Part shown: one piece after another, positions 12,421 through 61,800 of the stretch
Position numbering within the stretch: the stretch's first letter is position 1
How the letters are laid out: each line of letters begins with the position of its first letter
DNA from: Cristatella mucedo
Taxonomy: Eukaryota; Bryozoa; Phylactolaemata; Cristatellidae
Direction of reading: 5' to 3'
Assembly (NCBI GenBank): GCA_009760855.2
Contig: WPIO01000110.1
Location: 505,501 to 569,500 of the forward strand
Length of the DNA: 64,000 nt
Program-made: the position numbers and the translations under genes
Notes under the pieces: model-generated
Databases searched by the model: none
Told to the model about the DNA's origin: nothing
The model's input: only the letters and a program-made list of their open reading frames with translations

Positions 12421-12848
12421 ACTCCAGCAGCTGTTGTGCTGCTGTTCGTGAGTCGTCAGGGTATTGCAGCTAACTTGATGTGGCATGTCGTGATATCTCT
12501 CTACTTCCTCTGCCAACAAGAAACCGTTTATTGCCCGAGTCTCTCAACTCTGTTGCTGCATGTATTGATGACATTCCCCGTCAACAACGGCAAATGTTTT
12601 TAACCGAATGCTGATAAATAATTTACTAGTTATAGGATAATCAATTGAGATTTAGAAATTGAAAAGGCTAACGCTCAAATATGCTCAGCCAACATATCTT
12701 CTGTAGAATCTGAGCGAAACGTACGTCTCATATTCGAAAGTGACATTTTATTAGACGACCGAATCAGCTCTACAGTCAGTTCTGCCTACGTACCACTCCA
12801 AAACATTGCTAAAACTACGCTTTTTTAGGCAGTTATACCATATCTTTA
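12421..12848. repeat. Repeat upstream of module A; matches 37190-37390
   Basis: About 12670-12845 pairs with 37210-37385: shared blocks aatatcttctgt, gaatct near 12710, cagttctgcct against caagtctgcct, and ttagacaatcctacc against ttaggcagttatacc. The first part (12421-12550) resembles the start of the 530-bp tandem unit. Confidence 0.55.
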
Positions 12849-13017
12849 AATATGTATATATATGTATATATATATATATACATATATACATATATATACA
12901 TATATATATATATATATATATATATATATATATATATATATATATATATATATATATATATATATATATATATATATATATATATATATATATATATATA
13001 TATATATATATATATAT
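12849..13017. repeat. (TA)n microsatellite, about 169 bp
   Basis: An almost pure TA run with a few tatg/tata interruptions at its left end. Open frames of Tyr-Ile repeats through it are artefacts. Length in assemblies of such runs is unreliable. Confidence 0.95.
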
Positions 13018-13325
13018 GCTAATCAGAGCCAACTCCTGGCTCTGCTGCTCCTCAGTTGTTACATGCCACTCAGCCCAGCCAAAGAGTCTCCTAAGAAAAT
13101 TACCGCTGGACACCTTGAAATCGCTTTCGGAACGAAGCTTCGAAATTGCCTATTGGCCCTGGTAGTTAAAATTTAATTCGGTGGTAAATACGGACTAAAT
13201 TTTCAACCAGTCCTTTGGCTTATGTAGAGGTGCTGGGAAGCGAATGTAGCACGCGATTCTGTACTCCCCGTGGTACGAGAGTAGCCGTCACGGTCCACCT
13301 ATTGCAGCTATTGTGATGCAATGTA
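13018..13325 (+). repeat. Module A of the mosaic repeat, copy 1, left part
   Basis: Matches 42770-42980 and 47577-47787 through the actcctggc(t/g)ctgctgct, gctgggaag and agccgtcacggt blocks. Two LINE insertions (13316-14640) then break it. Confidence 0.7.
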
Positions 13326-13890
13326 ATGTAAATTATCTCGGTCAGTGAATCCACAAAACCACAAAGACCGTGTTGGTGTAATGCAGGAGAGTTTGAAATA
13401 GCTCACTGACAGTCTAAGCGTCTTTCGCTACTCATTCGTTAGCCAACAGCCTTCATCTCACGCAAAATAGAGAAATTGTGAAGGATAGCAGAGACAGGAG
13501 AGCAGTTGAGGTAGTGAGTGACATGGAAGAACCAGTTCAGGACCGCTGAAAAGGATGAGCCATGGTCGGCAGCAGGAGAGTAGTTGTCGTTGTGTAAGAT
13601 GTGTGGAAGTGTGTTCCAGTGTAGGACCTGCAAAATAAAGCTTCTGTCACCAACGGTCTTTAAAAATACTATCTGATTTAACAGACTCTTTTTGTATAGC
13701 GACAGAAAAGTCTTTACGGCTATCGCTACCGCTTGCAGTGGCGATAAAGGATCGCCCACCGCACGATTCAAACCCATGACCTCAGGTCCGAGGTCGTGAA
13801 AAGCAACCGCCTTACCCAGTGAGCCATTAAGCGCAAGAATGGAACAGCTAATTTATTGTCCATACAGGACCTGAGGGGCACGAGAACGTG
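13316..13890 (-). mobile_element. LINE 3' fragment, same family as 8.6 kb
   Basis: Starts on the plus strand with the tail complement (gcaatgtaatgtaaat) and continues in reverse through the 3' untranslated region and the last part of the reverse transcriptase frame (LKTVGDRSF and HYLNCSP are readable). A SINE (13663-13830) sits inside it. Heavily 5' truncated. Confidence 0.82.
13663..13830 (-). repeat. SINE family 1 nested in a LINE
   Basis: Full-length, reversed. The B box complement cgattcaaacc lies at 13764-13774. The LINE reads continuously across the insertion when the SINE is removed (ggtcttt joined to taagcgcaag, matching the LINE at about 10470), with a short duplicated ttaa-like target. 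Confidence 0.85.
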
Positions 13891-59640: not shown

Positions 59641-60260
59641 CATAAAGAGATACTTGGGCAAGAGCGACTCTATGTAGTCACCTGCTGAGGTCAGATCAGC
59701 AGGGCCATCCAGCTACGTGCGAAGATGGTGTCCTCGAGAGCACTAAAGACACCCACGTCTTCATTCAGAGGCAGGCATTACTCACCGCTAACACGGCACA
59801 GCGAGGGTGAACAACGGTGAACAACGGTAGACACGCCCACTTTATTTAGCCATTTCGGGTTCGAAAGCCCAGCCAGCAGTCGGCGATTCTCTCCGAGTGG
59901 CACCGGGCAAGCCCGGGCAAGCGCTTAGGTGGGATTCTCTGAGTCTGCGTTCATGCTTTCATTACTGGCGGAGGTGTCGTATAGAGATTTAATTTCTTTT
60001 CCGGGGGGAAGGCCACTTGGCCGTCAGCCGCTGATTGAGCGACAGCAGCGCTCAAAGTGGCGAGACCGAGGCTAAAACCGACGACTGCAACTACGTTACA
60101 AGATTAGTTGCTAGAAAATTGCCATTTACGCCGATAGGTCACCACTTTCGGCAGTTTCTTTAATTGGGTCGTTGCGAGGTGAGTTTATAATGGTTGCTGT
60201 CGATTTCTCGCCAGCCAAACTGCAAATTTGTTATAGCCGCAATGCCTGCTATCATGAACT
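59641..60260 (+). repeat. Downstream part of module E and start of next module A
   Basis: Colinear with 23671-24240, including gacgactgcaactacg, ttcggcagtttctttaattg and gtcgatttctcgc blocks. Confidence 0.75.
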
Positions 60261-60700
60261 AATGTCTCCGCCTAGGTGGACTTGTCTCTTTTATTCTAGC
60301 CTACGCTCATCGCATCGAGTGCAACGTTGGTTGAACGGAAGCATTTCCTGTTGTTTCAGAGCCTGCAGCTGCTGGCTCTGAAACATTTTTAGCCCCACAA
60401 ACGGTTTGCTGTTGACGTCAGAGACAGCGTCTCTGGCCTTAATCTCAAGTCTTTCTTTAGTCCTTAATCTACGAAAGAGCTGCAAAAAGTTAGAAGATCC
60501 TGAAGTTGTAACTGAGAGGGGCAGCATACGCCACGTCTATTTCAACGGCTCTCCATTTTTTTGCCATCAATCGCAATTGCAAATAAACCGGCAGCTGCAC
60601 CATAAGCTCCACTAGGCCATAAACTGACTGTAGTAAAAATGACAAGCTACGCAAATGCCGTCAGTCCACAATCAAGGAATGCCATAAATAAATCATATAG
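60261..60700. other. Unmatched stretch with a small hairpin
   Basis: A perfect 12-base inverted repeat (60352-60363 and 60374-60385, tgtttcagagcc and its complement, 10-base loop). No other feature recognised. Confidence 0.5.
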
Positions 60701-61800
60701 AGTCAGGTAAACGCAGCGTTAAGTTCAGCTTATGTAAGTCTTCCCACAAAGCCTGCTAGCCAATATTGAGGTGCATAAAAGTTTTCCGGGAGCAGTAGAT
60801 GCTGCTAAATCCTTTACAGCTGGACGCGCCATGTTACCTTAAGACAAACCGCTTATACCATGCTTGCGCTGTGAGTCGTTCTTTCTACTTCTTGCTTCCA
60901 TCCTACTTCGCTCTTCCTTGTTGTAGGAAGTCGTCGCGGTTGTCTTCCGCTCGGGGAAGTTTCCGATATGATGGTAGGAATTGGCCCACTTCGATACCGC
61001 TCACCATAAACTTAAACTGTCCATGATTGATTTCTACTTCTGCCACCTAACTCTAGGATTCTTGTGCGACTAGTTCATATATTTCCATAAGCGCGCAACT
61101 CTCGCAAAAAGCTTCGACGTTTTTGCCGGTTGACTCGTCCCCATGCTTTTCAAAGCACGGGAGAGGGCGTGCCGTTGACGGCGCCTACTATTGGTCGTTG
61201 GCTAAGTCTTGCCGCAGCCTTAGCCAAGAAGTAGAGCCGCATTTTGCTGCTCGAATTTGTGCACGAAGTCTGTCCCAAGTCTCGGACAGCTCCCCAGCTT
61301 AGGATGGGCGATGCTTTGACCCTTCGTCTATCAAAGGTCATAATTGTTGCCAGCAGCATCCGGCTAGGCGTTATCAAGGAATCCTATCGATTTCTTCAAG
61401 GAGTTCGCCGGTCTTCAGATGGCTGGGGCGACGTATCTGGCAGCAAGCCGACTGGCCTACCCCGATAGGTTGGGCAAGGAGAGGAAATGTAGCCCATCTT
61501 CAATCTTGTATCACCGTCTCCACTTCCACTCTCTTCCCTACTCTTCTCACCAATCTACGCTGTTCGCCACCCTTACGATGGCCTCGATTTAAGCCTATCC
61601 ATGGAACGGAGAGACTACTTCCGTTTCGATACCTCGCAAAAAAACTCGTGCATTTTGGTGTTAATTTGCAATCCCTGTACTGAAGGTGAGTAGCCTGTGC
61701 ATATAGCGAGCAGAAGTTAATTTTCTTTATTTAGTCTCTAATCTTTCTTTGGTGCATTTTGAAGACTGCATGCCTTTATTCCGAGCCTGGTAGAATACTT
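60701..61800 (+). repeat. Module C, diverged copy
   Basis: 60830-61260 matches 16600-17080 (cttgtgcgactag, tccataa, cttttcaaagc, agaagtagagccgcattt). 61360-61620 matches 18080-18320 (gcgttatcaagga, gatggc(c)tcga, ggagaggaaatgtagc). Confidence 0.65.

Follow-up and report, generated by a model that had tools for sequence, protein, structure and literature searches.

Most of this stretch of DNA is filled by sequence modules that recur in the same order, and the question is what kind of unit they make up. The window, by which we mean the whole 64,000-nucleotide stretch analysed here, corresponds to positions 505501-569500 of the 1,355-kb contig C12. The original prediction described five modules, A to E, repeated head to tail, and could assign them to no known class of element. 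We propose that they very probably belong to a tandemly arrayed gene family subject to birth-and-death evolution, and not to a new mobile element.

Layout of the array and its insertions

Self-BLAST of the window (E<=1e-5) returned 129 matches (44,136 aligned bases), against one when the same procedure was applied to the reversed, non-complemented window, and reproduced the predicted colinear recurrence of modules A-E. Unit 1 (9.6 kb) is colinear with 47779-60263 (unit 4) over successive blocks of 66-91% identity with extra sequence between them, in agreement with a tandem array of 9-10 kb units interrupted by insertions. Module E occupies seven places in the window, the minimum that had been predicted. 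Its tail had been expected to pass directly into module A at two points; it does so at 24.16-24.23 kb, while the first recognisable module beyond 60263 is C (60699). The features are listed below in window coordinates, modules A to D and the two complete units as delimited by self-BLAST.

14646-15674 and 47779-48810; 24234-25273, colinear to 48168-49481: copies of module A
15681-16254 and 51071-51658: copies of module B
16245-18331, 38006-39450, 43341-43546, 52266-54363 and 60699-61620: copies of module C
18498-20941, 39958-40768, 43577-44389 and 54537-57595, with the start of D also at 61624-61787: copies of module D
12055-12427 (minus strand), 21648-22834, ~30630-31252, 35422-35508, 41036-41572, 44827-45319 and 58471-59648: the seven places of module E
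12055-12427, minus strand: degraded E copy, on the opposite strand
14646-24225, plus strand: unit 1, modules A-B-C-D-E and tail, with an intact E exon
21648-22343, plus strand: intact copy 1 of the E coding exon (P0001; 231 codons plus stop), its frame conserved across copies
24234-31252, plus strand: degraded unit 2, in which an LTR element and a short repeat interrupt the E exon
26253-30615, plus strand: LTR retrotransposon inserted in an E copy, with LTRs at 26253-26545 and 30326-30615
35417-46219, plus strand: degraded units, C-D-E then C-D-E, with a sister block at C12:491791-501178
41036-41572, plus strand: degraded E copy, with an 81-residue stop-free match of 57% amino acid identity to P0001
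42414-43109, plus strand: 696-bp segment that repeats 47221-47916 at 99.57% identity, the flanks on either side being unrelated
44802-45319, plus strand: frameshifted E copy, in pieces in three frames
47779-60263, plus strand: unit 4, A-B-C-D-E-tail
58471-59157, plus strand: intact copy 2 of the E coding exon (contained in P0002; the ORF spans 58345-59157 and is homologous from 58471)
60699-61787, plus strand: truncated last unit, C and the start of D, at the right end of the cluster

Other units, all degraded, are found at 24.2-31.3, 38.0-42.3, 43.3-45.3 and 60.7-61.8 kb, and identity between module copies is uneven, ranging from 55 to 99% in bins of 100-150 bases. Compared with unit 1, unit 4 has extra sequence at 48811-51070; since the first part of this matches 24.7-25.3 kb, the sequence may have been lost from unit 1. 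Unit 4 also carries a 206-bp tandem duplication (53586-53989). Between its modules B and C lies a dispersed repeat of about 610 bp (51650-52262), pieces of which occur at 79-84% identity in neighbouring stretches of C12. GA microsatellites are found at the corresponding place in module D of three units (19028-19113, 44092-44238 and 55078-55124). The window held no Rfam RNA gene and no tRNA, and Rfam likewise gave nothing in 15 sources that cover 150 kb of neighbouring or related sequence.

The original prediction saw no polymerase gene within this span, which does not hold for the inserted sequences. The element at 26253-30615, which we read as Ty3-like, matches DUF7047 (81.1 bits), matches an RNase H-like domain above the Pfam cutoff and RVT_1 below it, and its LTRs are identical at 273 of 290 aligned bases (94.1%). 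Its flanks match unit 1 at 22051-22125 (E 6.8e-4) and 22132-22212, and the module E copy at 30.6 kb has an extra weak fragment on the opposite side of the element, at 26169. A LINE-related piece lies at 14010-14631. In a Pfam scan covering 10 of the 13 window ORFs of at least 150 residues, matches fell on two LTR-element ORFs and a LINE-type ORF, with one endonuclease match below the cutoff on P0003; all reverse transcriptase-type matches were in inserted elements. We take the LTR and LINE pieces as insertions and not as parts of the unit. The LINE-type reverse transcriptase ORF lies at 8589-10820 (RVT_1, E 2.4e-30), and related fragments are present at 13.3-14.6 kb and, 92.6% identical, at C398:2166647-2167506. 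No target-site duplication was seen by eye at the 696-bp segment (42414-43109), which falls in 42002-43612, a region absent from the sister block (95%).

Module E as a coding exon

The search for a coding core within the unit was successful in one respect, yielding an exon in module E with two intact frames; a mobility protein was found in the unit neither by the Pfam scan of 10 of the 13 ORFs nor by the six-frame scan described below. Eighteen E loci, some of which may hold more than one copy, lie together in 430-569.5 kb of C12, and 16 of them contain stops or frameshifts or are fragments. The two intact copies share 83% amino acid identity, and in each the motif ATTAAA (at 22635 and 59449) begins 292 bases past the last base of the stop codon.

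Selection on the E reading frame was apparent from 44 of the 45 pairs among ten E copies, the recent pair w41/g497 being left out. Median dN/dS was 0.47 in the ORF frame (interquartile range 0.39-0.54) versus 0.94 and 1.24 in the other forward frames; the reverse frames gave 0.81, 1.02 and 0.54, the last (shift 2) with about nine stops per pair. Between copy 1 and the diverged copy at 41 kb, dN was 0.32 and dS 1.31. A 40-codon scan of the unit in six frames, which required at least two comparisons with all available ones stop-free and at dN/dS below 0.5, and which would miss shorter or decayed exons, passed a single window, 22071-22190, inside E. The coding sequence of E has thus been under selection in the past. 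Present selection is less clear: the intact copies differ by dN 0.084 and dS 0.109, an overall dN/dS of 0.77, so constraint today is unproven outside the C-terminal part and at best weakly shown there (dN 0.019 and dS 0.049 over the final 93 codons). Identity at the base level is not informative by itself: in the 462-kb copy, three bins outside E reach 83-86% similarity to unit 1, on a par with the coding domain (84-90%).

The E protein is probably a small secreted, cysteine-rich extracellular protein, judging from its sequence. A hydrophobic, cysteine-containing stretch resembling a signal peptide was seen by eye near the start of the frame, and the cysteines of the C-terminal domain are kept in both intact copies, with just one of them missing from the 41-kb copy. 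None of the in-frame ATGs of copy 1 is followed, by eye, by a convincing signal peptide, which means postulating an exon further upstream; no such exon was found. A putative splice acceptor was read by eye near 21668 of copy 1, and the gene is presumably expressed. P0001 and P0002 gave no Pfam family at E values up to 10 (filters drop most matches above 0.1), P0001 had no PDB sequence match at E<=1, and a pattern search of prokaryote genomes found no relative. A viral origin was considered too: residues 5-73, which take in the cysteine-rich stretch, are 29% identical to a single viral contig, and this match was judged to be due to chance. By analogy, our best guess is that the protein may act as an extracellular effector or defence protein.

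Mosaic similarity between the intact copies

The two intact copies and their surroundings are similar in patches: they are 95-98% identical at ~22.09-22.55 kb and 86-94% at 18.6-19.0 kb, against 55-79% in bins spanning 19.3-21.6 kb. When the 462-kb copy is added as a third sequence, the sites at 22242-22399 unite copies 1 and 2 in 42 cases, versus two and one for the alternatives. At 20066-20388 it is copy 2 and the 462-kb copy that are united, by 54 sites (23 for copies 1 and 2, 24 for copy 1 and the 462-kb copy), and at 21014-21166 copy 1 and the 462-kb copy, by 31 sites versus 17 and 17. Such switching along the unit is expected of gene conversion or mosaic exchange and not of one tree. In a tree of 11 E copies, copy 1 groups with copy 2 (100/100), the 463- and 489-kb copies join them (100/98), and four of the eight inner branches are open.

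We infer from these patterns that gene conversion was the homogenising step between the intact copies. The exon and 3' UTR could also have been kept alike by strong selection, and conservation of the C-terminal coding domain is indeed good in the best bins of the 462-kb (84-90%) and 486-kb (85-86%) copies. We consider this explanation unlikely, as copies 1 and 2 differ at two sites in the initial 140 bp of the 3' UTR, yet the 462- and 486-kb copies are only 69-81% like unit 1 at 22400-22599, and site patterns switch along the unit.

Extent, origin and known counterparts of the cluster

Unit 1 matches place the array at ~430.7-567.3 kb of C12, with both borders inside the 400-645 kb covered (400-430 kb, 430-510 kb, the window and 565-645 kb). 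At 400-430 kb the sole unit 1 match is 75 bp long. Right of 567.3 kb, as far as 645 kb, the matches are to short dispersed repeats within the unit (unit 1 coordinates 17229-17386, 18336-18499 and 24938-25044), together with a few other short ones such as 583798-584120, 607939-608190 and 621047-621217. Ordinary genes were named by eye to the right of the cluster, namely an MRGBP-like ORF (L017:8873-9631, minus strand) and a GART-like exon with a run of N after it (L021:7349-7500). The GART-like exon spoke against a flatworm host, since parasitic flatworms are not known to have de novo purine synthesis; judging from the neighbouring genes and repeats, the host is probably an animal. The left part of the cluster is mostly in minus and the right part mostly in plus orientation, with exceptions at 443.7-444.4 kb and at 12.06-12.43 kb of the window. 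Parts of the degraded units at 35417-46219 are 93-97% identical to their sister block, which is without 42002-43612, indicating that duplication is recent or has continued recently.

The module order is thus kept beyond the window, as had been predicted, and partly so on two other contigs. A search of the 572-Mb genome (688 contigs) with module A gave at least 42 matches; among the matches listed, those longer than 300 bp are confined to C12, C398 and C185, and the remainder, below 300 bp, lie mostly within query positions 480-790. The C398 copy keeps the order A-B-C and stops at unit 1 coordinate 18016, and the C185 copy keeps A-B-C-D and stops at 19050, so the two loci compared outside C12 lack precise shared ends. 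Their common order and different end points fit segmental copies and not an element with fixed ends. Neither has an E or P0001-like reading in the 10 kb on each side. Near the C185 copy, ORFs resembling a Polinton-type protein-primed DNA polymerase were noted by eye (L026:5261-7446, minus strand).

Two other origins of the array were weighed. In one, a large non-autonomous mobile element landed in tandem or in itself, and E is the fossil of a captured gene. The partial, same-order copies on two further contigs would suit such an element, as would the recently inserted 696-bp piece with its unrelated flanks; the outside copies, however, end at different module positions, the long module A matches listed are restricted to three contigs, and the C12 copies sit between two borders, which together make it very unlikely. 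The other would have the array be non-coding tandem repeat, whether satellite-like or repeated regulatory DNA, with the E frame open by chance. Most of the unit is indeed without coding signal, nearly all E loci are broken or fragmentary and, in the 462-kb copy, conservation in some non-coding bins equals that of E, but two intact frames of more than 225 codons and frame-specific dN/dS in diverged copies (copy 1 and the 41-kb copy) render chance highly improbable.

Tandem gene duplication therefore fits better than a fixed-end element of unrecognised class, given the borders on C12, the unlike ends on C398 and C185 and a sole coding signal that is a gene exon in E. Against it stands the finding that the C398 and C185 copies have A-C or A-D but, as far as they were covered, no E; the gene reading accounts for them only as truncated duplicates. 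On this reading a stretch of some 10 kb with a single gene, its main exon being module E, would have been repeatedly duplicated in tandem, with part of the cluster in inverted orientation. Exchange, deletion and insertion of LINE, SINE-like and LTR sequences would then have broken up most units, and gene conversion would have made the two intact-frame copies alike across the coding exon and the first part of the 3' UTR. The probable product is a small secreted protein whose cysteine-rich C-terminal domain is conserved. More tentatively, and less likely than not, the cluster could represent an undescribed family of secreted cysteine-rich effectors with an immune, venom-like or reproductive role. 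Conversion would then keep the exon for the mature protein and the early 3' UTR uniform among the surviving genes, introns and flanks would drift, and the array would serve as a reservoir of sequence variants. A puzzling modular array would in this way be explained as ordinary gene-family growth and decay, and it offers a cysteine-rich protein with no match in the libraries searched, two intact genes and conversion tracts that can be read against a strongly diverged background.

Segments of the SpTransformer (SpTrf) clusters are flanked by GA repeats, of which the GA microsatellite in the D modules of three units is reminiscent, and SpTrf proteins differ from the cysteine-rich C-terminal domain of the E protein. 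The likeness to these clusters (Sp185/333) of the purple sea urchin, presumed in PMC8634487 to have arisen as gene-bearing regions were repeatedly duplicated and deleted, with ectopic insertions, is drawn by description and not by sequence, and is one of mode of evolution only. Keratin-associated proteins, a birth-and-death family, resemble the E family, again by description and not by sequence, in being cysteine-rich and in gene conversion (PMC2528016). A general parallel in form is with the tandemly arrayed genes of animal genomes, neighbouring duplicates mostly on one strand that make up ~14% of genes in the vertebrates surveyed, as given in PMC2547482; here, by contrast, broken copies outnumber intact ones and the protein family is nameless in the libraries searched. 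This kind of cluster is already known, and it is the particular protein family and locus that may be new.
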